64,000 nucleotides of DNA from an uncultured Granulosicoccaceae bacterium (GTDB lineage: Bacteria; Pseudomonadota; Gammaproteobacteria; Granulosicoccales; Granulosicoccaceae): the NCBI GenBank assembly GCA_938006335.1, contig CALLMF010000031.1:1-64000 (forward strand). Direction: 5' to 3'. The position numbers and the translations under genes were made by a program. Shown here one piece after another: positions 4,582 to 56,845 of this stretch (within the stretch, counting starts at the first letter, position 1; each line of letters starts with the position of its first letter). The notes under the pieces are model-generated. The model saw only the letters and a program-made list of their open reading frames with translations, did not search any database and had not been told where the DNA came from.

Positions 4582-7023
4582 ATGGCGACTGCAAAAAAAA
4601 TGAAAACCCAGACGCGCGCCGTTGTCATTGGTGGGGGCATCGCTGGCTGCTCCACGCTGTATCACCTGACCCAGGAAGGATGGACCGATGTCGTGCTGGT
4701 CGAGCGTAACGAGCTCACCTCCGGTACCACCTGGCACTCGGCGGCGCAGGTCACCAACTTTGGTGCCACGCAAACGATGGTGGGGCTCAAGACCCACTCG
4801 ATCAATCTGTACAAGGAGCTTGCCGAAGACCCCGAGTACCCGATCAACTACCACCATGCCGATGGCGGTATTCGTCTGGCAAATACAGAAGCGCAGATGG
4901 ATGGCTACCGGCACTTCGTGAGCATGGCCAAGGGCATGGGCGTGGATTTCGAGGTAATCGATGCCGAGGAGTGCGCACGTCGTCACCCGCTGGTCTCGAC
5001 CGAAAACCTGCTGGGTGGATTGTGGGACCCGATGGACGGCGACATCGACCCGGCGCAGCTGTGTCAGGCCCTCGCCCGCCGCGCGCGCCTTGCGGGTGCC
5101 GAGGTCTATCGCAACACGCCGGTCATCGGCCTGACGCAGCACAAGGACAACAGCTGGACCGTGCATACCGAACACGGTGATATCCGCTGCGAGGTCGTTG
5201 TCAACGCCTGCGGTTACCGCGTGAACGAAGTGGGCGCGATGATGGGCGTGCACCACCCGGTAGCGTCGATGGAACACCAGTATTTCGTGACCGAAGCCAT
5301 CCCGGCCATCGAGGCAGCTGGCCACCGGATGCCTTTGCTGCGTTGCCCGATCAGCGACTACTACTGTCGCCAGGAAAAGAACGGTCTCCTGGTGGGCTTC
5401 TACGAACAGGATTGCAAGACCTGGGGCATGGACGGCATCGACCCTGACTTCGTGAACGCCTTGTGCCCGGACGACATGGACCGCGTGATGGACGTGCTCG
5501 AAGGTGCCTTCGAACGTATGCCTGCGCTGACAGAAGCGGGTATCCATTCCATCGTCAATGGCCCGATCACCTACACCATTGACGGCGCACCGCTGGTCGG
5601 CCCGATACCCGGCAAGCGCAATGCCTTCTGCATCATCGGCCTGCGCGCAGGTCTTGGCGAGGGCGGTGGCCACGGGTGGCTACTCGCACAACAGATCGTG
5701 CATGGAGAGGCGTGCTACGACACCTGGGTCATCGATCCGCGCCGATTTACCGGCCACGCCAACGTCGAACTCACTTCGCTCAAAGCCATCGAGGACTACC
5801 AGAACGAGTTCCGCTTTCACATGCCGCACGAGCATCGACCGGCCGGTCGTCCCGCCAAGACCACACCACTGACCCCGATACTCGCCGCCGAAGGCGCTGA
5901 CTTTGGTGTCGTCAACGGTTGGGAGCGTGTCGCGTACTTCAAACCCTCAGAGGACTTCAAGGAAACCCACAGCTTTCGCTTCAACGAACGCTTTGATGTG
6001 GTCGGCAAGGAAATCAGCGCCATACAATCCGGCGTTGGCATGACCGAAGTCAATGGCTTCAACCGTTTCGAGATTACAGGTACCGGTATCCGTGAGTGGT
6101 TGGACACCGTGGTGTGCAGCCGCGTGCCGCGCACGATGGGCAAGGTCGGCCTGACCTATCTCTTGAACCACGAAGGCAACATCAAGACTGAAGCCACGCT
6201 TGCCAACCTCGCCGAGGATCGCATCTGGTACGGCTCGGCCGCCGCGTCCGAGTATCACGACATGGACTGGCTGACCGGTCTGTTGCCCGATGACGGTTCG
6301 ATTCAACTGCGATCACTGACCAACGACTGGACCATCCTCGTGATAGCCGGTCCCAAATCCCGCGATGTGCTGTCTGCCGCATCGCGTGGCGACTGGTCCA
6401 GGGAGGCCTTTCCCTGGTTGTCGGTGCGCGAAGCCTTCATCGGTTTTGCGCCTGCGGTGGTCATGTCGGTGAGCTTCTCGGGTGAACTCGCCTACGAGAT
6501 CCACGTGCCCAACAGTCAACTCTACGCGGCGTATCTCGCCCTTCGTGCAGCAGGCGCAGCACACGGTCTCACGCTCTTTGGTAGCCACGCCGTGGAATCG
6601 ATGCGGCTCGAGAAAGGCTATCGCCACTGGAAGGCGGACCTCATCACCGAGTTCGATCCGATCGAAAGCGCGCTCGAACGATTCGTGCAACTCGACAAAC
6701 CCGCCTTTATTGGCAAGGATGTGCTGGTCGAACGGCACAAGAGCGGACCACGTCGTGCGTTCGTGACCCTCATTCTCGACTGCACCCATGCGCCAGCGCA
6801 CGGCGGCGACAGTATTGTTGACAAGGATGGCAACTGCATCGGCACGATCACATCGGGCGCCTGGGGTTACCGGACCGGTCAGAACATCGCCATGGGATTT
6901 ATCGACTGCGCGTTCGAAGCGATCGGTACCGCCGTGTCGGTCGAGGTGATCGGTGAGCCGGTCAAGGCACAGGTCGTTGCACCGGATCTGTATGACCCGA
7001 GCTACTCGCTGGTTCGTGCTTGA
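4582..7023 (+). CDS. FAD-dependent oxidoreductase with C-terminal GcvT/aminomethyltransferase domain (dimethylglycine/sarcosine dehydrogenase-like)
   Basis: RAVVIGGGIAGCSTLYHL FAD motif, ELTSGTTWHSAAQ, C-terminal GcvT-type ESMRLEKGYRHWKADL. Confidence 0.88.
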   Translation: MATAKKMKTQTRAVVIGGGIAGCSTLYHLTQEGWTDVVLVERNELTSGTTWHSAAQVTNFGATQTMVGLKTHSINLYKELAEDPEYPINYHHADGGIRLANTEAQMDGYRHFVSMAKGMGVDFEVIDAEECARRHPLVSTENLLGGLWDPMDGDIDPAQLCQALARRARLAGAEVYRNTPVIGLTQHKDNSWTVHTEHGDIRCEVVVNACGYRVNEVGAMMGVHHPVASMEHQYFVTEAIPAIEAAGHRMPLLRCPISDYYCRQEKNGLLVGFYEQDCKTWGMDGIDPDFVNALCPDDMDRVMDVLEGAFERMPALTEAGIHSIVNGPITYTIDGAPLVGPIPGKRNAFCIIGLRAGLGEGGGHGWLLAQQIVHGEACYDTWVIDPRRFTGHANVELTSLKAIEDYQNEFRFHMPHEHRPAGRPAKTTPLTPILAAEGADFGVVNGWERVAYFKPSEDFKETHSFRFNERFDVVGKEISAIQSGVGMTEVNGFNRFEITGTGIREWLDTVVCSRVPRTMGKVGLTYLLNHEGNIKTEATLANLAEDRIWYGSAAASEYHDMDWLTGLLPDDGSIQLRSLTNDWTILVIAGPKSRDVLSAASRGDWSREAFPWLSVREAFIGFAPAVVMSVSFSGELAYEIHVPNSQLYAAYLALRAAGAAHGLTLFGSHAVESMRLEKGYRHWKADLITEFDPIESALERFVQLDKPAFIGKDVLVERHKSGPRRAFVTLILDCTHAPAHGGDSIVDKDGNCIGTITSGAWGYRTGQNIAMGFIDCAFEAIGTAVSVEVIGEPVKAQVVAPDLYDPSYSLVRA

Positions 7024-20627: not shown

Positions 20628-21461
20628 TCAATTGGCACACAGGTCCAGCACTTCAGGCTCGTCACGATCAACGGGCCCCAGCTCCGGAAAGGCATCCAGC
20701 ACCCCTTCTACGATACCGGCCGCATAAGGGGCCCGTGCAAGATACGGCTGATCCTCCTCGACAGGATGCGCCAGGACATGCCGCCGCGTGGAGACGTCGC
20801 CATTGGCCACCAGCACCGATGGCCATGGCCCCAGCAGCGCGTCAAGGTCGTTGCCACTGTCACCGATGAATATGGTGTGGGCGTCGTCCACGCCGAGGCG
20901 GCTCTGCAGATGCTCTACCGCGCCTCGTTTACCGCTACCCGCAGGCAGCGCATCCACCAGCAGCTCGTCGACATCGGGGTCATGACTGACGGCAAAGCAG
21001 ACACGGGACGCCATGTCTCCAACGAGCTTGCACAGCAGGACTGGCGTGACCACCGCGTCGCTGATACCGCTGTAGCTGCGCTTGTACGCGCCCTGGCGCG
21101 CTGCGGACTGAGGCGTCAGACCCGCCCCTTCCAACAGCAGACTGTCCAGCCTGCGCGTATCCACATGCTGCCAGCGTTCGGCCAGCTGCTCGGGCCATTG
21201 CTCATCGGCAATCCATTCTCCATCAACATCGACTTCCAGCACGTGGGTACCCACATCGGCCGCGATGAAGTCGGGCTCCGGCAGATCCCACTGCTCCATG
21301 GCTACACGCACCAGCGCCGGGTCCCGGCCGGAGACATAGGCCAGCAGCACACCCGGCCGGCCAACCAGTTGGTCAAACTGATCTCGCGCGCCTGCCGGTT
21401 CGGCGACTTCTCCGTTAGGCAGCAGGGTGCGATCGAGATCGGTGCAAATCAGTATGGTCAC
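20628..21461 (-). CDS. HAD-IIB sucrose-phosphate phosphatase-like
   Basis: ICTDLDRTLLPNG, VSGRDPALV, GSGKRGAVEHL, IFIGDSGNDLDALL. Confidence 0.85.
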   Translation of the reverse strand: MTILICTDLDRTLLPNGEVAEPAGARDQFDQLVGRPGVLLAYVSGRDPALVRVAMEQWDLPEPDFIAADVGTHVLEVDVDGEWIADEQWPEQLAERWQHVDTRRLDSLLLEGAGLTPQSAARQGAYKRSYSGISDAVVTPVLLCKLVGDMASRVCFAVSHDPDVDELLVDALPAGSGKRGAVEHLQSRLGVDDAHTIFIGDSGNDLDALLGPWPSVLVANGDVSTRRHVLAHPVEEDQPYLARAPYAAGIVEGVLDAFPELGPVDRDEPEVLDLCAN

Positions 21462-23635
21462 ACGTCAAGAAACCGGTAGCGATCTATCGCCTCCAGTATG
21501 CCGCCCGCAAAGGGTCTACTGGCAAAATAGATGTTTTGCCCGGGTTCGAGCCCTACCAGCTCCTCATGTGCGCGGTTCCCGACGACGGCAGCGAGCGTGT
21601 TGCCACGCATCATGTCCTCGTCGGCACCCGACCCGCCGATCGCCAGCACGCGCTCCAGTGGGAGACCAAAACGCCCGGCCACATATCGCAGCGCGTGTCC
21701 CTTGGAAGCTCGCACCGGCACCACATTGACCAGGCGTTGATGCGAAAACAGGACATTGACCGACTGTTCGGCCTGGCGCAGTCGCGCCTCGATATCCCCG
21801 ATGGAGGGGCCGCCCTGCTCCGCGAGCTTGTAGCTGATCTTGAAGGCGCTGTGGTACTTGCGCTCTCGCCGCACCAGCCCGGGTACATCGTCGAGTACGC
21901 GACGCACGATCTCCGGAGTCCACTGCCAGGCAATGTGGCCGCGCCAGTGCGGATCATCGGCTAGCTTCGGTGCATAGCAGATACGCGTACCCGCGCTGGT
22001 CACGAGAATGTCCGGCTCCGGAATCCCGTGCTTGTGCATCAACCTCAGCGCGGTACGACGCCTGAGCCCCGTCGATATCGCAAACAGTAGTCGTTCGCGG
22101 TTTGCGCGTACCACCTGCAGGAGTTCCTTGAGTGCCTCGTCGTCACCGATCAGGCTGAGATTGAGATCGGTGAACAGCGCACGGTCAAAGTAGACCGGCC
22201 GCCAGTCCTGCGAATGCGGCGCGACGCTCGATGCGGAGCCCGTCTCGACAGCGGGATCCGCCACACGCGCCGGGTCGGGCACCGAGGCTTCGTCAATGAC
22301 GTCCGCCATCATCGACACGACCGACTCGGCGTGTGCCTGCCATGAGTAATGTTTGCGCACGCCAGACAGGCCGCGCCGCGACCACGTCTGCCAGGTCTCC
22401 CAATCGTGGGTAACCCTGTCCAGCGCCGCGCCCAGTGCTTCGGTATCCAGCGGATCGACAAGTATGCCGTTACGGCAGTTGAGGTGGATGTCACGTGGAC
22501 CACCGTTTTCGGTCGCAACAACCGGCAGGCCGCTGGCGGCCGCTTCAAGCAGCGTCAATCCGAAAGGCTCGGTCAGTGCAGCATTGACGAAGACGCCTCC
22601 GGTGAGTGCAGCCAGCCGATACAACACCGGGACATCGTCCTGTTCATGATGCTTTGGACAGGCCACCTTGCCGTACAGATCGTAGCTGTCGATCAGTTGC
22701 AGAACGTCTGTCAGGACACGACGAGCCCCACCTTGCAAGTCCTCGATGTTGTCCCGGTTGCCGAGCACCAGTATCAGATTGACGCGAGAGGACAATGTCG
22801 GGTGTTCGCCATAGGCACGCACCAGTGTGGCGATATTCTTGCGCGGATCAGCACGCGCGATCGCAAGGATCATCGGACGCTCCGGGTACTCCAGAAAGCG
22901 ACGCACCGCGACCGCTATGCTGCTGTTGCGCTCGTTGCCACCAGGGGGATGAAACCGCTCGAGATCCGTACCCGGCGGTATCACGGTCATGGCATCAGGG
23001 CGATAGAAGTCGTAGAGCTCGTACTGTTCCTCGATCTCCTGATGGGTACTGGCGATGACGCGCGAGGCGACCGCGAGCGTCTGCTCCTCTGCATGCACCC
23101 GTCGCGTCATCGCGTAGCGGCTCTCGATTTCGCCCGCGTCGACACCACTGGCAAGCAGACGTCTTCGCTTGACCCGTCCCAGGGAATGGCCGGTATGCAC
23201 CAGTGGCACTTCCAGCATGTTGGCCACGCGCGAACCCACGTAACCGCCATCCGCGTAGTGCGAGTGGATAGCGTCAGGGCGTAGTCCCTCAGCACGATAG
23301 AGGGACAACAGGTTATCGGTGAAGGTATCGAGGTGATCCCAGAGCTGCTCCTTCGGCAAATAGCCCGCCGGGCCACAATCAATGCGCAATATCTTCACGC
23401 CGGATGCGAGTGTCTCCACGGGCTCGCGGTAGCAGGGATCAACCGCGTCGTCCTCGACGCACCGGGTGACAAGATCAACCCGCGCAACGCCGCGGTGAGC
23501 TGCCAGGGCATTGGCCAGCTCCAGCACGTACAGCAGTTGCCCACCGCAGTCTGCATCCCGCCCCAACTCCAGAGCGCCACCACGCAACAGCCCGTGGACG
23601 CTGATCAAACACACATGCAAGCCTTGTTCGGCCAT
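21458..23635 (-). CDS. Sucrose-phosphate synthase (GT4 domain plus C-terminal HAD-like domain)
   Basis: ISVHGLLRGGALELGRDADCGGQLLYVLELANAL, SHYADGGYVG, HTGHSLGRVKRRRLL; overlaps the phosphatase start; ATG 23635 chosen by homology. Confidence 0.9.
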   Translation of the reverse strand: MAEQGLHVCLISVHGLLRGGALELGRDADCGGQLLYVLELANALAAHRGVARVDLVTRCVEDDAVDPCYREPVETLASGVKILRIDCGPAGYLPKEQLWDHLDTFTDNLLSLYRAEGLRPDAIHSHYADGGYVGSRVANMLEVPLVHTGHSLGRVKRRRLLASGVDAGEIESRYAMTRRVHAEEQTLAVASRVIASTHQEIEEQYELYDFYRPDAMTVIPPGTDLERFHPPGGNERNSSIAVAVRRFLEYPERPMILAIARADPRKNIATLVRAYGEHPTLSSRVNLILVLGNRDNIEDLQGGARRVLTDVLQLIDSYDLYGKVACPKHHEQDDVPVLYRLAALTGGVFVNAALTEPFGLTLLEAAASGLPVVATENGGPRDIHLNCRNGILVDPLDTEALGAALDRVTHDWETWQTWSRRGLSGVRKHYSWQAHAESVVSMMADVIDEASVPDPARVADPAVETGSASSVAPHSQDWRPVYFDRALFTDLNLSLIGDDEALKELLQVVRANRERLLFAISTGLRRRTALRLMHKHGIPEPDILVTSAGTRICYAPKLADDPHWRGHIAWQWTPEIVRRVLDDVPGLVRRERKYHSAFKISYKLAEQGGPSIGDIEARLRQAEQSVNVLFSHQRLVNVVPVRASKGHALRYVAGRFGLPLERVLAIGGSGADEDMMRGNTLAAVVGNRAHEELVGLEPGQNIYFASRPFAGGILEAIDRYRFLDV

Positions 23636-23764
23636 GGGAGAACGTGAAATTGCCAGTCGATTTCGGTAGCGTGCAAGCTGCTTGCGCGGCTCGTTCGACC
23701 ATGACAGTACCGCAACTGTCACGGGACTGGCCATGCGCACCGACTTACGAGGCACCGCTCGACC

Positions 23765-24484
23765 ATGACCGACAACAAGCCATTGCTTGGCATCCTGCAA
23801 TGCGGCGAAGCGCCGGAAAGCATGGAGCACCTGGGTGACTACGATGTGCTGTTCCACCGTCTGATGGGCCAGGACAATTTCGACTTCAGGACCTGGCGGG
23901 CCCTCGACGGCACGCTGCCGGATTCTCCTGAGGCGGCCAATGCGTGGCTACTGACCGGGTCACGCCACGGCGCCTACGAAGCACACGACTGGATTCCCCC
24001 CCTGGAGTCTTTTGTAAGGGAGGTACAGGCGCGTGGCGTGCCGATGCTTGGGATCTGTTTCGGTCACCAGCTGATCGCTCAAGCCCTCGGCGGGCGCGTG
24101 GAAAAATTCTCCGAGGGGTGGAGCGTTGGACGCACCTCGTACCGCTGGCTGGGTGATGACGCGGTGAATCTGGCGGCGGATATGGACCTGCCGCTGATGG
24201 CCTGGCATCAGGATCAGGTGGTCGAGGCGCCCCCATCGGCGCGCACCGTCGGCGAGAGCGACTTCTGTAAAAACGCCGCATTCGTCTACGGCGACTCCAC
24301 GTTTACCGTGCAACCACACCCCGAGTTCGACTCGAAATTCGTCGAGGGGCTGATCCGCACCCGTGGCGCACTGATCCCTCCGGATCGCCTTGCGGCAGCC
24401 ACCGAAAGCCTTGAGGCACCGTTGAAAAACGACGCCATCGCAGAGACCATGCGCCGCTTCGTGCTGGACAGAATTGCACGTTAG
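23765..24484 (+). CDS. Class I glutamine amidotransferase (GMP synthase glutaminase-like)
   Basis: GVPMLGICFGHQLIAQALGG, WLLTGSRHGAYE, VQPHPEFDSKF. Confidence 0.9.
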   Translation: MTDNKPLLGILQCGEAPESMEHLGDYDVLFHRLMGQDNFDFRTWRALDGTLPDSPEAANAWLLTGSRHGAYEAHDWIPPLESFVREVQARGVPMLGICFGHQLIAQALGGRVEKFSEGWSVGRTSYRWLGDDAVNLAADMDLPLMAWHQDQVVEAPPSARTVGESDFCKNAAFVYGDSTFTVQPHPEFDSKFVEGLIRTRGALIPPDRLAAATESLEAPLKNDAIAETMRRFVLDRIAR

Positions 24485-44546: not shown

Positions 44547-46103
44547 ATGTCGGAAACCAAGCTTCGCCGCCGTCGTCGCGGTGCACGCGCGGCCATGCAC
44601 GCCGAGCGCGCGGCCCCCTTGTCTGACACGGACCGACCTATCCGACCCGGGATGTCAGGCGGGCGATACCAACCGCTGTCCGACAGCGACATTGCCCGTA
44701 TCCACGAAGCGGTGCTCGACACACTGGAGACCATTGGTCTCGGCCAGGCAATACCCAGTTGCATGGACGCGGTGGTTGCAGCGGGTGGCCACTACAAGGA
44801 TGGACGCTTGTTCTTTCCTCGTGCGCTCGTCGAAGACACCATCGCCAATGCCAACCGCGACGTGGTGCTCTACGGACGCGACCCCGTTCACGACATGACC
44901 CTCTCGGGCTCACAGCTGTATTTCGGGACAGCGGGCGCGGCAGTCCATGTCGTGGATGTGGACACACACGATTACCGCGAATCACAGCTGGCTGACGTCT
45001 ACGATTTCGCGCGGTTGGTCGACCAGCTGGACAACATTCACTACTTTCAGCGATGTGTCGTGGCACGAGATGTCGACGAACCTGCCGACATGGATTTCAA
45101 CACCTGCTATGCCGCGGTACGCGGCACGACCAAGCATGTGGGCTCCAGCTGGGTAGAGCCCGAGCACGTCACCGAGTCGCTGAAAATGTTGCACACCATA
45201 GCGGGCTCGGAAGCCAAGTGGCGCGAGCGCCCGTTTGTGAGCATGTCAAATTGCTTTGTGGTTCCACCCTTGCGTTTTGCAGAAGATGCCTGCCGATGCC
45301 TGGAAGTTGCGGTAAGGGGTGGCATGCCGGTATTGCTGTTGTCCGCCGGACAGGCGGGTGCAACCAGTCCGGCTTCGCTTGCAGGCTCCGTCGTGCAAGC
45401 CGTTGCTGAAGTGCTTGCAGGGCTTGTGTACGTCAACCTGCTGGTGCCAAAACACCCGGCGATCTTCGGGACATGGCCGTTTGTCTCGGACTTGCGTACC
45501 GGATCGATGAGCGGTGGCAGTGGTGAGCAAGCGGTACTCGCCGCTGCCTGTGGGCAAATGGGCCGTCACTACGGCCTTCCCACCGGTATTCCGGCCGGCA
45601 TGGCAGACGCAAAGCTCCCCGATGCACAGTCCGGTTACGAAAAAGCGTACACGCTGACTCTGGCCGCGCATTCCGGGACCAATCTGGTGTACGAGTCCGC
45701 TGGCATGCACGCGTCCTTGTTGGGGTGTTGCTACGAATCGATGGTGATCGACAACGACATGCTTGGGGCTATCAACAGAACGGTACGCGGCATCGAAGTC
45801 AACGATCAGACCCTCTCGCTCGATGTCATGCGTGACACCTGTATCGACGGCCCCTCTCACTATCTTGGCCACTCGCAGACGCTTGAGCGTATGCAGAAGG
45901 ACTACGTCTATCCCGAGATTGGCGACCGCAACAGCCCAAAGGAATGGCTGGAGAAAAATCGTCCGGAGTTGATGACGACAGCAAAACAACGTCTTGCCAC
46001 ATTAATGAAAAACCACCCAGGCTCGTTTGCGGACGACGTTGATGACGTGATACGTGCGGAGCACAAGGTGCTTCTGCCCAAGGACGCGATTGGCCGTCTC
46101 TGA
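44547..46103 (+). CDS. Trimethylamine methyltransferase (MttB) family protein, non-pyrrolysine
   Basis: GGRYQPLSDSDIARIHEAVLDTLETIGLGQ...GTAGAAVHVVDVDTHDYRESQLADVYDFARLVDQLDNIHYFQR...LPDAQSGYEKAYTLTLAAHSGTNLVYESAGMHASLLG. Confidence 0.92.
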   Translation: MSETKLRRRRRGARAAMHAERAAPLSDTDRPIRPGMSGGRYQPLSDSDIARIHEAVLDTLETIGLGQAIPSCMDAVVAAGGHYKDGRLFFPRALVEDTIANANRDVVLYGRDPVHDMTLSGSQLYFGTAGAAVHVVDVDTHDYRESQLADVYDFARLVDQLDNIHYFQRCVVARDVDEPADMDFNTCYAAVRGTTKHVGSSWVEPEHVTESLKMLHTIAGSEAKWRERPFVSMSNCFVVPPLRFAEDACRCLEVAVRGGMPVLLLSAGQAGATSPASLAGSVVQAVAEVLAGLVYVNLLVPKHPAIFGTWPFVSDLRTGSMSGGSGEQAVLAAACGQMGRHYGLPTGIPAGMADAKLPDAQSGYEKAYTLTLAAHSGTNLVYESAGMHASLLGCCYESMVIDNDMLGAINRTVRGIEVNDQTLSLDVMRDTCIDGPSHYLGHSQTLERMQKDYVYPEIGDRNSPKEWLEKNRPELMTTAKQRLATLMKNHPGSFADDVDDVIRAEHKVLLPKDAIGRL

Positions 46104-47895: not shown

Positions 47896-49752
47896 TCAGG
47901 CCAGCGACAAACGCTCACGCATGATGCCGTCCAGCTGCTCTGATGTGAGCGGTTTTCTGAACACATCAATCCCCATCTCGGTGATGTCGCGCATTCGTTC
48001 CGGGGATTCGCTTCCGGTGACGACAATCACGCTCTCATTACCTCGCTGATCGGCCACCTGAACCGCAATGTCCAGACCGCGCTCATCGGCACCGAGCATG
48101 TCGTCGATAATCGCAAAGTCGATATTGATGCCAATGTTCTCGAGCACCCCGATGGCATCCTGCTTGTTGTCGCTGAGAAGTGGCTCACCTCCCCGGCTGA
48201 CCACATGACGACTCAGGGCGTCGAGCACTCCGGGTTCGTCATCAACGATGAGGATCTTATGGCCTTTGAGGTCAACGGGCTGGACTGCCGGCGCCCCTTG
48301 TTTACCGATCGGCCTGTGGTCTTCGACCCTGGGTACAGATCTCGAATCGGACAGAGGCAATATCAGTCGAAAACACGAGCCTTCACCCGGTGTGGACTCA
48401 AGCTCTACCCTGGCGCCGAGTATTTCTGCAAGTCGTCGAACGATCGCAAGTCCAAGTCCGGTGCCTTCACCGGTTCTGCGGGCCGGATTGTTGAGCTGCG
48501 CAAAGTCATCGAAGATCAGCTTCTGGTTGGCCTCGTCGATACCGATGCCCGTATCAACCACCTCGATGATGGCGTTGTTTCCGGTGGCGTCCGGACGGAC
48601 ATGGACCTGGACAGAACCTGCTTCTGTAAACCGCACGGCGTTGCTGAGTAGATTACCAATCAGCCGTTCAAGCAGCATCGTGTCGACCTGAGCGTGGAGT
48701 GTTTCGGCATGACACGCCAGTACAAGCCCCTTGGCATCGGCTTGCGGGCGCACGGTTTCGATGGACGATTTCAGATAGTCACCAAGCTCCACCAATACGG
48801 GTTTGGGCTGGAAACCACCAGCATCCATGCTGGACAGATCAAGTATGGCGTCGAACTGGGCACGAAGCCTCGCTGCTGCCATCGCCGCCTTGTCCACAAG
48901 ATCAACGGTGTCGGGTGACGTTACCGAGAGCTGCAAGGCGTCTATATACAAGGACAGTGCATGAAGCGGCTGGCGCAGATCGTGGCTGGCTGCCGCAAGA
49001 AACTCGCTCTTGGAATGACTGGCTGCACGCGCGCTGTTCAGAGACGACTCCACCAACTGCTGACTACTTTGAAGTTGCTGATTCTGCTCGGCGTTCTCCA
49101 GACGCATGCGTATGGAATCGCGAAAAAATGCGCTGTTGCGCCTGGCAAAGCCAAGCTCCAGCAACAAGATGGCAAGGAGTAACAGGGCAATGGCAGGTTC
49201 ATCCCGATTACCGAGTCCAGCAAAAAACACCATGCCTTGCCCGAGGTTTACAAACAGCAGAATGGGCAACAGCCGGATCTGGGTCATCGAGTTGATCGTG
49301 CTACCAATCGAGTACATCGCACTCAGCAAGGTAATCGCAAACACGATTCTTTCATCACCTGGAATACACACCAGCCAGTACCCGGTCCCGATGATCAGGG
49401 GCATTGCAACACCGGTCAGAAAGAGTATCCCCTCGTTATGCATCAATTCAGACGCATCCGCGGCCTTGAGCCGGCGTTCTACACGTACACAGACCCACGC
49501 TCTGACAATCGTTGCTGCCACGATAGCAGCCAACCAAGCAGCGAATATCGCGGTGTCAGTGCGTGTCTTGAACGATATGAAGTAGACAGTCGCAACAATC
49601 ACGACAAGCACGAGCGACTGTCGGCTCTGGAATGTGCGCACTTCCTGGGAGCAGCGCATCACCTCCCGCTCGAGGGAGTCACTCGTGAGACGATCCACCG
49701 TCAGTCCGGTAAGCCGCTCGTTGAGTGCGTTCCAACGTTCAACGAGATTCAT
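47896..49752 (-). CDS. Membrane hybrid histidine kinase with C-terminal receiver domain
   Basis: ~6 TM segments; AASHDLRQPLHALSLYIDAL H-box; GTGLGLAIVRRLAEILGA; C-terminal KILIVDDEPGVLDAL receiver. Confidence 0.93.
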   Translation of the reverse strand: MNLVERWNALNERLTGLTVDRLTSDSLEREVMRCSQEVRTFQSRQSLVLVVIVATVYFISFKTRTDTAIFAAWLAAIVAATIVRAWVCVRVERRLKAADASELMHNEGILFLTGVAMPLIIGTGYWLVCIPGDERIVFAITLLSAMYSIGSTINSMTQIRLLPILLFVNLGQGMVFFAGLGNRDEPAIALLLLAILLLELGFARRNSAFFRDSIRMRLENAEQNQQLQSSQQLVESSLNSARAASHSKSEFLAAASHDLRQPLHALSLYIDALQLSVTSPDTVDLVDKAAMAAARLRAQFDAILDLSSMDAGGFQPKPVLVELGDYLKSSIETVRPQADAKGLVLACHAETLHAQVDTMLLERLIGNLLSNAVRFTEAGSVQVHVRPDATGNNAIIEVVDTGIGIDEANQKLIFDDFAQLNNPARRTGEGTGLGLAIVRRLAEILGARVELESTPGEGSCFRLILPLSDSRSVPRVEDHRPIGKQGAPAVQPVDLKGHKILIVDDEPGVLDALSRHVVSRGGEPLLSDNKQDAIGVLENIGINIDFAIIDDMLGADERGLDIAVQVADQRGNESVIVVTGSESPERMRDITEMGIDVFRKPLTSEQLDGIMRERLSLA

Positions 49753-52700
49753 GCCGGGAGAACCCCCAGCAAGTCGACAGTGGCGCCAGACCGGTGCAGC
49801 AATGCTCCGCTGGCGTCATAGCTACCGAGGGTCATTCGGGCATTCATGGAATCAAGATCGAGCCGTGTGAACTGCTGATTGGCATCGGAGAGTAAATGTT
49901 GTTGCAGGGTCAAGGTCACATCCGAGCCGCGTATCGGCACCGTGACGGTTCGTCCCCAATCGATGCTTTGAGCGGCGACATTCGCAAACGGCAGCGGTGC
50001 GAACAAGCCGGAGGCCACCACTTGATGCATCTGCACCGAACGCCCCGACCTTTCCAGTTCGATGTGAGCATGACACGAGAGATGCGGATCACCCGACAGC
50101 CAGACCACCCGAGTGACTGCCGGCAGCTGGACAATGGCATCAAACAGCGTCTCGAGAAATCCGGAATACGCGAGCAATCCATCGACATGCTGCTGCAAGG
50201 ATGGATGTGCCACAAGGTCTCGCGACACGGGCATGAATGCTGAGCCACTCGCAACGAACAACACCGTTTCATCGTCTTTCGTTGCCTGCAGCCAGTCGCA
50301 GAACGCGTCCAGCTGTGAGCCACCAAGCAAAGCCGTCGCCTGAGCCCGGTCAATGTCCTGGCGTTCAAAACGCGTATCGAGACAGAACAAGCGATGCCCG
50401 CGACACCGCACTTCTCCCCACAGGCGCGGCGTTTCATCAATCCTTGCGCCCATGCCGACATGCCGATGAGACTGAAAATTGGCCGCCTCCCTGCGAGCCA
50501 CCTCGAAGAGCTCGCGTGCCGAGCAATCCGCGTTGACGGCAAGTCCGGCATAGTCATCGTAGAGAGCATGATCATCGGCAACGAAGCGTGTCGGCACTCG
50601 TGACATCACGCGGCGCATGGCTGATCCCCGAAAGGCCGTGCGGTAGCGTCCGCGGAACCTTTCGTAGAGGGCTATCGGATCCGCAAGATCCGCGGTCGCG
50701 TCTGCATAGATCTGATCACCGAGCAGTAGCAACATGTCAATCCCGGCGTCTTCGCCACTGTGCGCGTTGGCGAAGATATGGCGATCGATACCTTCAAATA
50801 TGGTGTCGCTGAGCTCTCGCTCGAAGGTGGAACCCGGGTGCAGACACGACCCGAGCCCAAGACAGAGATCAGGCTCGCCGTCATGCGGACCTTCACCGAA
50901 GCGGCGTCGCCACCACGGGAGATCGCCGGTCGGCGTGAGCGAGCTATTGGCAGCCGTCGACAGATCGGGTTGTGCGGCGTGTACGACCCGTGCTTGCGGC
51001 AGGCAAGGCAACAACGTGGGGTGTGTGATGCGATTCAGCCAGAATCGACCTCCACGGGGAGACACTGGATACGGACGAGTAAGCGACTCGGAAGGTACGA
51101 CACGCAGTGCACCGTCCTGCGTTCCAGCATTCAGTTCGATCGCTTCCGGAAGATGCGTGCTGTAGTCGTCCGTTTCGTTCCAGACCAACAGATCGGTGTC
51201 GTTGTCGAGCGAAAGCACCGGGCCACATAGCGGGGTAAGACTCGGATCGAGACGCGTATGGGGCCTGTCTTCCGGCTTGATCCGCCGATCAGCGTAGCGC
51301 GTGGCAAACGTGGTGAAGCGATCATGCTCACGACCGGCTGACGCCTCGGCCTCGGCTGCCTTGAAAAAGTGCAGCAAGGCCGGACCCGCGGAGCGAGTCG
51401 CATGCTTGCCGAAAATCATGTCCATGTGACCGTAGTCAGCAAAGGTCTCAAGCCACACGCCATGCCGTGCGTGCTCTGGTGTGTCGTCTCCAGGCAGCGC
51501 GTCCCCCGAATCTGCTCGCCGAAAACGCATCAACAGCTCGGCAGACAGCCTCGACGATTCAATATCAAACACCCTGTTGACATCGCCGTGAAGAAACAAG
51601 GTAGGAAACGTGAAGTACTTTGCGAGCGCTTGTTCGTTCACGTATTCACTGCTTCCCTCGTGCGCCACCAGGCGGTTGCGCGTGACACTGAAGTAGACCT
51701 GTTGAAGCACGGCAATCGGCACAGGGCCGATCATACCGGCAAAGGCCCGCTTCAGCCTCCGCGACACATTCCGGTGGTTCCACTGCTGACCCCAGAAAAT
51801 CGTGTAGCGAACGTATACGGAGCGGGCAAAGCCTCCGCCACGGCTATCACGCCAATGCTTGCTCCAGGGCCATTCAACGCGCTCCTTTCGGTCGATCGTT
51901 GAGGTCGCCAGGCGATCGAAAATGATTTCGGTCCAATGAGGTCGTGAATGCAGGCGTGGCTCTACGGTATCGATCAGCTCCAGGTCCTTGACCAGTGCCC
52001 AACCATTCTCGCGCGCTCGATTGTCCGCCGATGCGTACAACCACGGCGTCACCGCATGCGGCACGAGAGACGCCAACATGGATCGTTGTGGCGCATCCGG
52101 CTGCTGCAACTTGCCGGCTAGTGCGGCGATGGACACCGCGCCCGCACCGATGCAGTGTGAAAACACATGCACCTGCCGCGCGAGACCAGTAGATGCTCCG
52201 CTATTGATGACGTCAAACACCTTGCGCACGGCCCAGGGCAGATCGATCAAGGCGATATCGTCCCAGGTGTGTGCCGGGTCAACGGACAGGCGTGAGTTGG
52301 CACTGGTGCGATGGTCGACAATCCACACCTGAAAACCGTTGGCAAGAAAGTACTGCGCGTAGTTTTCACTCAGAAGATCAGTCCAGAAGATCTCACTGCT
52401 GTGTGCGAGTCCGTGCACCAGTAGCAGAGCTGGCACTTCGGTGTTGACCAACCCGGCAGGTCGGTACTGAATCAGCCGAGTGAGTTCATCCGGGCTGGTG
52501 TAGGTCGTGACCGGCTCGCTACTGTGTTCGACACCTTCCCTGATGTAGCAAAGCCTGTCAGGCGGCAGGTTCATTCTCTCCCGATCAAAGCCGTCGAGAT
52601 CCTGCATGCGCTCGTAGTCGTGCGCACCAAAGCTCCAGAAATGCGTCTGCAGCAGCATGCGCGCCATCAGTGACATCGAACGCACGATAGCCACGAGCGC

Positions 52701-55301
52701 GTGCGGTGTGTCCTCTGCCTGCCGGATCTGTAGCGGTGCCGGCCCCTTCGTGATCCCGATCAGATCGATCGAGAATTCCGTGTGCATTGAAACGACACCT
52801 GATCGGCGCCAGTGCATCGGCAGCTGGAACAAGGTGTTCCAGACGGTCTCGCCGCGTGCCCGGAATTCAAGAGACTTCCGCCCTTCCAGCAACAAGTCTT
52901 CATGTTCCAGTCGATACACGAGATGGCGGTAGTCGCTATGCAATCGCGCCACACGCACGTAGCCTGCCGCGCGTTTGAGGAAGCCTCCTGAACTCGACGA
53001 TGTCGTGCTTTCCGACGGACGCCTGCGTAGCAATCCGAGGAGTGCAGCCCCCACCGCAAAGGGTCGATACCGGACATACCGGACACCCGCACTAAGCATA
53101 CGGGCCCAGCTCCTGAGTCCGCTCGCCCGATCTTCCTTGCCGAGCGTCACACCGCCCTGTAGATGCATCAGAGCCTCGTTCGGGAACTCGACATCGGCAC
53201 TGGTGTGCAACAAGGGATCCGTGAGTTCGTACAGCTCGGCCCGCGCAGGCAATTCGCGCCCGGGGTCGTTCTTCCAGCGATCCAGCGACGTGGTCCCGGA
53301 AAATTCAAAACAGATGTCGAGCGCGAGGGCTTGCACATCCTTGTTCACGGGTTTACCGATGAGCCGCTGAAGCGCGAGACGCTGCTGTTCGCGGGTGGCG
53401 GCATCGGTGTCCAGCTTCCAGAACAAGCGCTCGCTGAAGTCCGCCACGACGGGCGAGGCGGTGATCGCCGGCGGCTCGGGTATGTCCGGGAGCTTCTTGA
53501 ACCGTGGTTCGAGCAACGCGAAGGGGGCCGACGTCGGCATGTCGCGACCCGCCATGCGACTGCCCAGGCAGTAGGCAAGACTCGAGATGGTCAACATGGG
53601 ATTCGTGCCGACTGCCCCGGGGACCGCAGCCCCATCAAGCACGTACAGATTCTCGTAGACGTCGGTGCTGTCGAGCTGCGCGGGCGCAGAATGGAACACC
53701 TGCCCGTAGGTGTTCACAACTCCGGTCGCGGCACTGCTCCCCATGTTGCATCCGCCCAGTGGATGTACGGTGGTGACGCTACCTTCAAGGGCATCTGCTC
53801 CCTCGAAGATGTCGACAAAATCATCCGGCAAGGGTTTTCGAACCGGATTCGCCTGATAGCGCCCTCCATCCAGACCATCGAACGCACGTTGCTTGAGCGA
53901 CGTGAACGCAGCGTGCAAGCGGGAGTAGAAGCCGTGCTTGCCACTGTCATGCGGCCAGTAGGGTAAGACCTGACCGCCGGCGCCGTCGGCACGAAGCGTG
54001 CCCTGATTGCCATCAAAGCCCATGCTCAACAGCACTTGCGTGTGTTCGGCGAGCGCGTCGTCGCTGACCAGTTGATCGTTGTCGGGGTTGTCCTTCTGCC
54101 AGGCCGTCGGCTCGCTGGCCACAAAGCGTCTCAGGAACTCCAGTGAGGTTGTCAGTTCGCTGAACAATCCAACGATAGGGTGCGGTATGGCACCGTCCTC
54201 AAGGGTCAGACGTCCCGCACCTTCCGCACCATCGGTAACGGCTCGACCCACGATGGTCGGCCCGGGTCGGCTGGTGGCGCCGATGTCAGGAGTGCCAGCC
54301 ATCGCGTTCACAGGACTGCGCTGCCCGATGGACAGATGCAAGCCATCGCCGTTGGTCGAGAAGCTCTTGCCGAGGCGTGGAGACAACTGCAACGATCGAG
54401 AGCGCATCAGAATCTCGGTGCTGCCGATGGCGCCTGCGCATAACACGACTCGCCGCGCGGCGATGACAAAGGTCGTGCTCGCGTCCCGAGAAAGAGTTCC
54501 GTGAACCTGCCAACCCTCTTCGGATTCTTGCAGCGACAGTACGCGCGCACCGGTGTGCAGCGAGACGCCACGTTGATGCGCCAGTGGCCAGGCGTTCAGG
54601 TTAAGTGATTGCTTCGCACCCGAATGGCAACCGATCACACAGTTGCCACACGCATTGCAGGGACCGTGATCGACGCTATGCGGGCCTGGACCGTCCACGT
54701 TGATGGACAAGGGTGGCCGCTCGGTACGTGCACCAAACGCGCTGGCCGTTCGCGCCAGGGCATCAAACTTCCGTATGGGAATATCAGCCGGATACGGAAC
54801 TGCCCCCAACAAGGCCTCGATCTTGGTCTGGCATGCGGCAAAGCGCTTGGCCCAGGGCGCGCCGTCCGGCTGTGGCCACGTGTCCAGCACGCCGTCCAGC
54901 GGAGGTACCACCACCGACGCATTGACCAGCGAGGTTCCGCCCAGGCCGTTGCCAGAAATACTGACGATGCCGTCACCGCTACGGACATCCCACAGGGCGG
55001 TATCGTCACTAACAGCCGCTGGTGCAACCGCGCCATTGCTGGCATTTGTAAATCGTACATTGGACGCAACGTCACCCAGGCTGCGCGGCATGTCCTGAGG
55101 CAGAAATTCGTCGCCACGCTCCAGGACCGCGATCTCACCGGGCTGGGCAATGTTGTCTTCGGTCAGTGCGAGCGCTGCCATCGCAGCACCGTAGCCAGAA
55201 CCGATGATCAGCGTGTCGAAAGCCGGCGGATTGACCGCGTCGTCGCCGCCCGCGAGCAACGCCTCAAAGGGACGTGAGAGCCAAAACGTCACGAGCGACA
55301 A
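49749..55301 (-). CDS. Giant 1850-aa fusion: GMC oxidoreductase (cholesterol oxidase-like) + alpha/beta hydrolase + PhoD-like metallophosphatase
   Basis: FDTLIIGSGYGAAMAALAL and GLGGTSLVNASV (GMC); VHGLAHSSEIFW...SHCIGAGA...DYGHMDM (hydrolase); GLGSCLHPG...LLGDQIYAD...DDHALYDDY...LSGDPHLS (PhoD-like). Confidence 0.88.
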   Translation of the reverse strand: MSLVTFWLSRPFEALLAGGDDAVNPPAFDTLIIGSGYGAAMAALALTEDNIAQPGEIAVLERGDEFLPQDMPRSLGDVASNVRFTNASNGAVAPAAVSDDTALWDVRSGDGIVSISGNGLGGTSLVNASVVVPPLDGVLDTWPQPDGAPWAKRFAACQTKIEALLGAVPYPADIPIRKFDALARTASAFGARTERPPLSINVDGPGPHSVDHGPCNACGNCVIGCHSGAKQSLNLNAWPLAHQRGVSLHTGARVLSLQESEEGWQVHGTLSRDASTTFVIAARRVVLCAGAIGSTEILMRSRSLQLSPRLGKSFSTNGDGLHLSIGQRSPVNAMAGTPDIGATSRPGPTIVGRAVTDGAEGAGRLTLEDGAIPHPIVGLFSELTTSLEFLRRFVASEPTAWQKDNPDNDQLVSDDALAEHTQVLLSMGFDGNQGTLRADGAGGQVLPYWPHDSGKHGFYSRLHAAFTSLKQRAFDGLDGGRYQANPVRKPLPDDFVDIFEGADALEGSVTTVHPLGGCNMGSSAATGVVNTYGQVFHSAPAQLDSTDVYENLYVLDGAAVPGAVGTNPMLTISSLAYCLGSRMAGRDMPTSAPFALLEPRFKKLPDIPEPPAITASPVVADFSERLFWKLDTDAATREQQRLALQRLIGKPVNKDVQALALDICFEFSGTTSLDRWKNDPGRELPARAELYELTDPLLHTSADVEFPNEALMHLQGGVTLGKEDRASGLRSWARMLSAGVRYVRYRPFAVGAALLGLLRRRPSESTTSSSSGGFLKRAAGYVRVARLHSDYRHLVYRLEHEDLLLEGRKSLEFRARGETVWNTLFQLPMHWRRSGVVSMHTEFSIDLIGITKGPAPLQIRQAEDTPHALVAIVRSMSLMARMLLQTHFWSFGAHDYERMQDLDGFDRERMNLPPDRLCYIREGVEHSSEPVTTYTSPDELTRLIQYRPAGLVNTEVPALLLVHGLAHSSEIFWTDLLSENYAQYFLANGFQVWIVDHRTSANSRLSVDPAHTWDDIALIDLPWAVRKVFDVINSGASTGLARQVHVFSHCIGAGAVSIAALAGKLQQPDAPQRSMLASLVPHAVTPWLYASADNRARENGWALVKDLELIDTVEPRLHSRPHWTEIIFDRLATSTIDRKERVEWPWSKHWRDSRGGGFARSVYVRYTIFWGQQWNHRNVSRRLKRAFAGMIGPVPIAVLQQVYFSVTRNRLVAHEGSSEYVNEQALAKYFTFPTLFLHGDVNRVFDIESSRLSAELLMRFRRADSGDALPGDDTPEHARHGVWLETFADYGHMDMIFGKHATRSAGPALLHFFKAAEAEASAGREHDRFTTFATRYADRRIKPEDRPHTRLDPSLTPLCGPVLSLDNDTDLLVWNETDDYSTHLPEAIELNAGTQDGALRVVPSESLTRPYPVSPRGGRFWLNRITHPTLLPCLPQARVVHAAQPDLSTAANSSLTPTGDLPWWRRRFGEGPHDGEPDLCLGLGSCLHPGSTFERELSDTIFEGIDRHIFANAHSGEDAGIDMLLLLGDQIYADATADLADPIALYERFRGRYRTAFRGSAMRRVMSRVPTRFVADDHALYDDYAGLAVNADCSARELFEVARREAANFQSHRHVGMGARIDETPRLWGEVRCRGHRLFCLDTRFERQDIDRAQATALLGGSQLDAFCDWLQATKDDETVLFVASGSAFMPVSRDLVAHPSLQQHVDGLLAYSGFLETLFDAIVQLPAVTRVVWLSGDPHLSCHAHIELERSGRSVQMHQVVASGLFAPLPFANVAAQSIDWGRTVTVPIRGSDVTLTLQQHLLSDANQQFTRLDLDSMNARMTLGSYDASGALLHRSGATVDLLGVLPA

Positions 55302-55516: not shown

Positions 55517-55663
55517 TCATGCACTCAGCTGCGCCTTCAGTCCTCCATCTATCAGGAAGTTGGAGCCGGTCACAAACGCTGCAGCGTCCGTGCACAGGTA
55601 GGCTATCAGGACCCTGGGCTGATCGAAACGTGATGCTTCTCCACTTATACGTGAGTTGAGCCA
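55517..55663 (-). pseudogene. C-terminal remnant of a short-chain dehydrogenase/reductase
   Basis: Hand translation immediately after the uxuA stop: WLNSRISGEASRFDQPRVLIAYLCTDAAAFVTGSNFLIDGGLKAQLSA*; SDR-type C-terminus without N-terminal domain. Confidence 0.7.
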
Positions 55664-56845
55664 TCAGGCCGCGGTCAAGGATGCAACGGCCCGTTCCACA
55701 CCACGCAGCTCTGCAAGGCCCTTGAGTCTTCCGATGGCGGAGTAGCCAGGATTGGTTTTCTTGTGGACATCGTCAAGCAACAGATGACCGTGATCCGGGC
55801 GCATGGGTATGAACGGGTCGGCACGGCCTGCTTGCTGTCGGCGTGCCTCTTCTTCAAGCAACACTGCAATCAACTGGACCATATCAACCCCACCTTCAAG
55901 ATGATCGTCTTCAAAGAAGACACCATCCGCCTGGATCGTCACGTTCCTCAAATGAGCAAAGTGAACGCGCGAGGCAAACGCTCGAGCAATCTCGATCACA
56001 TCGTTGTCGGCACGCGAACCGAGCGAACCCGCGCACAGGGTAATGCCGTTGGCTAGCGTCGGCACAGCGGCAAACAGTGCCGCATAGTCGGATTGTGTGG
56101 ACACCACCCGCGGCAAACCGAACAAGGGCAATGGCGGATCGTCGGGATGCAGGCACACACGCACACCGCAGGCTTCTGCAGCGGGAGCAACCTGCTCGAG
56201 GAAGCTCACCAGATTGGCACGAAGTGCGTCGGCGTCGACACCCGCAAACTCTTCGATAGAGCGGCGAATACCTTCTCGGCCATGAGACAGCTCAGAGCCT
56301 GGGAGTCCGGCAATGATGGTGGCTTCAAGCGTCTCGATCGCACCCTCATCCATGCGAGAGAAGCGTGCTTGTGCCTCGGTGATAAAGGTAGCGGCATAGT
56401 CTTGCTCCGCACGTTCTCGACGCAGGATGAACAGGTCATAAGCGGCAAAATCCATAAGATCAAAGCGCAACGCAAGACCACCACGATCGGTCGGATAACG
56501 AAGGTCTGTTCGTGTCCAGTCGACAATGGGCATGAAGTTGTAACAGATGGTGTCGAGCCCCTGCGACGACAGGTTCTGCAAGGTCTGTATCCATTGATCG
56601 ATGTACTCTGCTGCACGCGCATCGCCCAACTTGATTGCAGGGTGTACCGGAATGCTCTCTACAACCGACCACTGCAGCCCAGCGGCCTCGATGGCGGACT
56701 TCCTCGCCGCGATGTCTTCCACCTGCCACACCTCGCCGGGAGCTGCCGTGTGCAGGGCGGTGACGATACCTGTAGCGCCAGCCTGGCGAACGTCAGCGAG
56801 AGTGACCGGATCGTCGGGCCCAAACCATCGCCATGTTTGAAGCAT
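55664..56845 (-). CDS. uxuA: Mannonate dehydratase
   Basis: MLQTWRWFGPDDPVTLADVRQAGATGIVTALH...VCLHPDDPPLPLFGLPRVVS...PFIPMRPDHGHLLLDD...NPGYSAIGRLKGLAELRGVE. Confidence 0.95.
   Translation of the reverse strand: MLQTWRWFGPDDPVTLADVRQAGATGIVTALHTAAPGEVWQVEDIAARKSAIEAAGLQWSVVESIPVHPAIKLGDARAAEYIDQWIQTLQNLSSQGLDTICYNFMPIVDWTRTDLRYPTDRGGLALRFDLMDFAAYDLFILRRERAEQDYAATFITEAQARFSRMDEGAIETLEATIIAGLPGSELSHGREGIRRSIEEFAGVDADALRANLVSFLEQVAPAAEACGVRVCLHPDDPPLPLFGLPRVVSTQSDYAALFAAVPTLANGITLCAGSLGSRADNDVIEIARAFASRVHFAHLRNVTIQADGVFFEDDHLEGGVDMVQLIAVLLEEEARRQQAGRADPFIPMRPDHGHLLLDDVHKKTNPGYSAIGRLKGLAELRGVERAVASLTAA

Follow-up and report, generated by a model that had tools for sequence, protein, structure and literature searches.

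What process would call for a flavin oxidase, a hydrolase and a phosphatase on one and the same polypeptide? The question is raised by a gene in the window, i.e., the whole stretch of 64,000 nucleotides analysed here, from an uncultured Granulosicoccaceae bacterium. Read from the sequence, the open reading frame spans positions 49749-55301 on the minus strand, starts with TTG and contains 1850 codons with zero internal stops. This confirms the single uninterrupted frame of ~5.55 kb described in the earlier note, which gave no strand. Translation most likely begins at the GTG at 55292, resulting in a gene at 49749-55292 and a protein of 1847 aa, because the homologues begin with VTNWLSEPVETLL or MTYWLSKPIEVLL, matching the corresponding stretch of the window, VTFWLSRPFEALL. 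Residue numbers are counted from this GTG, except for the GDQIYAD motif at aa 1528 (TTG numbering). All features of the chain given below are on the minus strand.

Three enzyme modules on one chain, as proposed in that note, are borne out by the Pfam matches GMC_oxred_N (residues 112-301), GMC_oxred_C (507-576), Abhydrolase_1 (957-1060) and PhoD (1520-1750), which all exceed the curated cut-offs. The motifs GDQIYAD, DDHALYDDY and LSGDPHLS were all found in the chain. The gene is present in one copy in its genome, and a promoter scan gave no signal exceeding that of shuffled sequences. Neither a signal peptide nor a hydrophobic segment is visible at the N-terminus of the chain, by inspection of the sequence and hydrophobic-segment prediction, which agrees with the earlier observation; the enzyme is presumably cytosolic.

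The first module is a GMC FAD oxidoreductase domain (aa 1-606, positions 53475-55292), scoring 63.3 bits with GMC_oxred_N and 42.2 bits with GMC_oxred_C (cut-offs of 23 and 24.6 bits). The FAD motif G31-S-G-Y-G, H510 and N564 are invariant: the His of the catalytic motif HPLGG (His510; motif at 53748-53765) and the second catalytic residue, Asn564 of the NP motif (53601-53603), are each present in 33/33 homologues. The class I cholesterol oxidase (Streptomyces type, 4u2l/1b4v) shares the FAD fold, the GxGYGxxxA motif, the HPLGG His and the NP Asn, and the family profile matches 4u2l with E=4.9e-36. However, the match is confined to the FAD half and to a catalytic stretch at the C-terminus; the alignment skips profile positions 336-520, and the substrate-binding part, the place of the catalytic Glu in cholesterol oxidase, does not align. 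The window enzyme, moreover, carries an extra CxxCxxCxxxC loop and two further fused enzymes. An identity as cholesterol oxidase (NF058674) was rejected at 94.6 bits against a cut-off of 850, in two stretches, the best of which covers residues 28-320 only. The sterol substrate suggested previously gains no support from this score or from the unaligned substrate-binding part.

The extra loop, CNACGNCVIGC (54627-54659), contains Cys212, 215, 218 and 222. Its ferredoxin-like CxxCxxCxxxC spacing is found in 31/31 homologues having that region, and no cysteines occupy this position of cholesterol oxidase in the profile alignment. A four-cysteine loop is also known in another GMC enzyme, the FAD glucose dehydrogenase of Burkholderia cepacia, where three of the cysteines bind a 3Fe-4S cluster (PMC6719666). 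The spacing there is C-C-x4-C-x3-C, versus C-x2-C-x2-C-x3-C in the window family, and no gene for a partner subunit of the glucose dehydrogenase type was seen beside the window gene. From its motif, the loop could possibly bind an Fe-S cluster.

The segment behind the oxidase (aa ~609-930, positions 52503-53468) belongs to no known family. The AlphaFold2 (AF2) model shows beta-strands and long helices, but a fold search, in which the hydrolase dominated the matches, recognised no known domain there. For this segment and for the linker ahead of the PhoD domain, no Pfam family was found even at E up to 1, and the earlier description of a poorly recognised middle part is thus upheld.

The alpha/beta hydrolase domain that follows (aa ~931-1317, positions 51342-52502) is assigned to its superfamily by Abhydrolase_1 (27.7 bits; cut-off, 25.8 bits) and by the match of its AF2 model to alpha/beta hydrolase structures. 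The residue at the nucleophile elbow (FSHCIGAG) is Cys1047 (52152-52154), a Cys in 33/33 homologues, all of which follow the pattern x-H-C-x-G. The catalytic His1289 (GHMD, 51426-51428) is equally conserved (33/33), and Asn1239 (HGDVN, 51576-51578), again 33/33, is found where a catalytic Asp is usual. Judged by the position of its motif, Asn1239 would be the third member of the triad. Cysteine triads with Asn as the third residue are known generally, and some alpha/beta hydrolases use Cys nucleophiles (PMC9825947).

By sequence profile and fold search, the nearest solved relatives are the acid lipases, gastric (1hlg/1k8q) and lysosomal (acid lipase/cholesteryl ester hydrolase, 6v7n). The aligned residue of these lipases is Ser, in contrast to the Cys nucleophile and the Asn at the Asp position in 33/33 members of the window family. 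An ordinary Ser lipase or esterase (GxSxG, Ser-Asp-His) is therefore ruled out by HCxG and the Asn at the acid position. A Cys nucleophile in the same fold is shared with dienelactone hydrolase and with PHA synthase, of which 9knj came up as a weak match. However, the window hydrolase matches neither the PhaC nor the DLH family and has Asn for the acid Asp, and PHA synthase was rejected on these grounds despite the Cys.

The C-terminal module is a PhoD-like metallophosphatase domain (aa ~1475-1847, positions 49752-50870), with a Pfam PhoD score of 57.1 bits (cut-off, 27 bits) and the metal ligands present. The ligand motifs SC, GDxxYxD (GDQIYAD here, at 50700-50720), DDH and GDxH show no variation, whether the PhoD copy is fused or stands alone. 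By profile, the domain matches the PhoD alkaline phosphatase/phosphodiesterase 2yeq with E=9.9e-16; the two share the metal-ligand motifs, the fold and a beta domain ahead. In the window, this is a small beta domain (aa ~1354-1469, positions 50886-51233), modelled by AF2 as low-confidence strands. It is probably PhoD_N-like, as Foldseek aligns a model of the linker and the PhoD domain with 2yeq over most of the model (575 alignment columns). Unlike 2yeq, the window PhoD is without a visible signal peptide and forms the C-terminal part of a presumably cytosolic fusion. A secreted PhoD phosphatase is not supported, as no export signal or hydrophobic segment is visible at the N-terminus. All catalytic positions checked along the chain are retained; its three modules are apparently intact.

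Full-length orthologues of the fusion (1874-1926 aa, 37-44% identity) were recovered from isolate genomes and MAGs by a contig scan. About a dozen loci besides the window carry the fusion; the scan found it, with 37-41% identity, in Pseudohongiella (isolates as well as MAGs), in uncultured Granulosicoccaceae and elsewhere among the gammaproteobacteria. A missed stop, which the earlier note had seen as a possible source of the fusion, or a sequencing or assembly artefact is ruled out by these orthologues. In a sample of the class, relatives of the part made up of middle region and hydrolase were found in 11/369 genomes, the window's own counted; in a sample of the phylum, 9/399 genomes gave a match. 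The class sample also yielded very long frames (1972, 2012 and 2096 codons) from three additional families, and in two of these (L063 and L064), PhoD is fused in one frame. In the third (L062:3-6762), the fused PhoD is split over two frames overlapping by 5 nt, probably because of a frameshift or an assembly error.

The same module also exists in a split form. Several genomes from this genus or family encode a GMC-hydrolase protein of 1383-1624 aa and, after it, PhoD as a gene of its own (~380-407 aa), with a small ORF of 148-165 aa between the two at L035 and L039. At three further loci (L068, L070 and L083), the GMC-hydrolase gene adjoins a calcineurin-like phosphoesterase, not PhoD. In the genomes of L068 and L070, both from another family, a second phosphoesterase type occupies the same position. 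At these two loci (L068:4718-6280 and L070:12122-13624), the phosphoesterase of 500-521 aa (SDLHLGARYS) overlaps the GMC-hydrolase gene. At L082 (2312-7598), a 577-aa GMC gene lies directly before an 1167-aa GMC-hydrolase gene, so that the oxidase part is apparently present there in tandem.

A maximum-likelihood tree built from 29 rows of the GMC-hydrolase core requires four changes between the fused and split labels, and its starred branches force at least two. The module was hence, as far as this tree goes, fused or split more than once. As the modules occur fused, as neighbours, and beside metallophosphoesterases other than PhoD, there is strong evidence, of the Rosetta-stone type, that the oxidase, the hydrolase and the phosphoesterase would share one process.

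Downstream, the fusion gene is linked to a signalling gene. A hybrid sensor histidine kinase of 618 aa (47896-49752, minus strand; HisKA, HATPase and receiver, preceded by ~5 hydrophobic segments) starts within its stop, the two genes overlapping by 4 nt (ATGA). Pfam detects HisKA and HATPase_c, with the receiver slightly under its cut-off; the motifs SHDLRQP, NLLSNA, DTGIGI, GLGLAI and IIDDML, representing the H-box, the N/G boxes and the receiver Asp, are intact. The catalytic part is nearest to the NahK/ErcS group, although the score of 241 bits with NF041832 (NahK/ErcS family) stays under the cut-off of 400, and the window kinase is the fourth best of 40 kinase-profile matches in its own genome. 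In the kinases of these loci, the kinase core is preceded by 3-6 predicted hydrophobic segments, leaving no space for a large periplasmic domain.

The same kinase type is found beside all 13 window-type (clade-I) fusion loci with flanking sequence, a count that includes the incomplete or split frames L021 and L030. It also accompanies most clade-II loci (L035-L039, L063, L064) and three clade-III loci (L068, L070, L084), and overlaps between the kinase and enzyme genes, from 1 to 70 nt, are frequent. The long-form loci L040 and L081 are without a kinase, as are the majority of the GMC-hydrolase genes with only two domains (1135-1173 aa). From the 40 kinase-profile matches in the 3.8-Mb window genome, we estimate that a kinase would lie within 4.5 kb by chance at roughly 1/10 loci. 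In the kinase tree, those from clade-I loci group in one clade (100/100). That dedicated kinases make up a single clade was not upheld, as two other kinases of the window genome fall in the wider group, together with L084.

LuxR/NarL-type response regulators recur beside the relatives, and the genes of the Pseudohongiella loci are arranged as regulator, enzyme, kinase. Beside the window gene, no LuxR-type response regulator is present. The best matches to a response regulator profile in its 94%-complete genome reach 145 and 136 bits, versus 184-398 bits for the regulators beside relatives, the latter scored with a locally built profile that closely resembles the first and has some of them among its members. 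The window copy has lost its adjacent response regulator. Between the mannonate dehydratase gene and the fusion (55519-55666, minus strand) lies an apparent C-terminal remnant of a short-chain dehydrogenase, ending in LCTDAAAFVTGSNFLIDGGLKAQLSA and a stop; this remnant suggests a deletion or insertion boundary where relatives have the regulator.

Clustering of the neighbours at 26 loci showed broad recurrence, besides the enzyme and PhoD, for kinases and regulators only. The neighbours that recur widely are limited to a hybrid sensor kinase of the multi-TM kind, a response regulator of the LuxR type and a phosphoesterase; no metabolic, lipid or sterol genes recur widely beside the enzyme in this clustering across genomes. 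A lipid or sterol operon was likewise rejected for the window, where the near neighbours are mannonate dehydratase, MATE, TrkH/TrkA, EamA, MTTB and GNAT genes. The enzymes of the fusion had been correctly described in the earlier note, which missed the overlap with the kinase and the association with kinase and regulator.

The closest parallel in layout is known from Pseudomonas, where an oxidoreductase gene (yiaY/ercA) is co-cistronic with a hybrid kinase gene (PP_2683/ercS), plus a LuxR-type regulator (agmR/erbR). Inactivating the enzyme or the kinase gene represses an alcohol-oxidation cluster (PMC12997753). Unlike the three-enzyme fusion, ErcA/YiaY is a single Fe-dependent alcohol dehydrogenase.

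The reading that we favour, with a probability of about 0.5, is that of a conserved module with an enzyme under two-component control, cytosolic and possibly membrane-associated, which oxidises, deacylates or transacylates, and dephosphorylates a lipid-like substrate. The lipid-like nature is proposed because, among solved relatives, cholesterol oxidase and the acid lipases come closest. The multi-TM hybrid kinase would sense a hydrophobic or alcohol-type compound, whereupon the LuxR-type regulator would induce the operon, and the fused enzyme would process the compound sensed. The GMC domain is expected to oxidise a hydroxyl group via His510/Asn564 and FAD, and electrons may exit through the Cys4 Fe-S site. 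The Cys-His-Asn hydrolase would then act via a thioester, cleaving or transferring an acyl group; removal of a phosphate or opening of a phosphodiester would fall to the PhoD domain. Points against this reading are that lipid or sterol genes do not recur beside the enzyme, that the substrate-binding part of the GMC domain does not align with cholesterol oxidase, and that the window gene has no regulator next to it. The kinase is not required for the core chemistry, since most two-domain GMC-hydrolase genes are without one. Three sequential chemistries on a lipid, sterol or phospholipid-like substrate had been put forward before. The functional linkage stands, with the modules adjacent in relatives and other metallophosphoesterases elsewhere; the sterol or phospholipid substrate and the sequence of steps are hypothetical.

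Other readings give the kinase a larger part. It is rather improbable, though conceivable, that the Fe-S-linked flavin oxidase, the Cys-His-Asn acyl-hydrolase/acyltransferase and the phosphodiesterase form a self-contained lipid-signal module, in which the remodelling of a phospholipid-derived molecule would yield or remove a signal for their own multi-TM hybrid kinase and LuxR regulator. About as doubtful is a model resembling CqsA/CqsS or LqsA/LqsS, in which the fused enzyme would make or destroy a hydrophobic diffusible signal, with the adjacent multi-TM hybrid kinase and LuxR regulator as receptor. The strict co-location of the kinase with the enzyme and a LuxR-type regulator is consistent with such a receptor, as are its hydrophobic segments without room for a large periplasmic domain, and a Cys acyl-enzyme suits acyl transfer. 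However, it is the NahK/ErcS group to which the catalytic part of the kinase comes closest, no result marking it as CqsS-like, and, to our knowledge, a PhoD phosphatase is part of no autoinducer pathway.

Somewhat less likely still, the kinase would read the occupancy or redox state of the enzyme, metabolic flux being secondary. The 4-nt overlap and the clade-wise co-inheritance of kinase and enzyme fit this, and there is an explicit dehydrogenase precedent, as a role of the enzyme as part of the sensor has been proposed for YiaY and PP_2683 in Pseudomonas (PMC12997753). A chain of three enzymes with all active sites intact, however, goes beyond the needs of a sensor, and the kinase is missing at L040 and L081. 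The least probable reading is mere convenience of co-expression, the three enzymes serving one stress or detoxification regulon with different substrates: these enzyme families are broad in substrate, but the same trio is fused and split over a deep divergence, having switched at least twice between the two, and the same GMC-hydrolase also has partners from a second phosphoesterase family.

The favoured reading, a two-component-controlled enzyme for a lipid-like substrate, combines enzyme families that are each known; new is the multifunctional enzyme in an enzyme-kinase-regulator module. Literature searches, with most subscription journals outside their coverage, gave no description of the fused architecture, with or without the kinase, a point that the earlier note had left to be checked. 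A conserved but uncharacterised gene set is defined here, consisting of oxidase, Cys-hydrolase, phosphatase, sensor kinase and LuxR regulator, with the cultured Pseudohongiella among its hosts. The linked kinase offers a route to the inducer and hence to the substrate, and two chemical novelties, the Cys-His-Asn hydrolase and the four-Cys loop of the GMC domain, can be put to the test.

Elsewhere in the window, three further genes were observed. An MttB-type trimethylamine methyltransferase homologue (44547-46103, plus strand) is probably a non-Pyl member, as its score of 345 bits is under the pyrrolysine MttB cut-off of 525. At 4582-7023 (plus strand), an 813-aa DAO and GCV_T fusion is of the dimethylglycine/sarcosine dehydrogenase type. 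A 799-aa fusion of glycosyltransferase and S6PP, of the sucrose-phosphate synthase/phosphatase type, is encoded at 21458-23857 on the minus strand.
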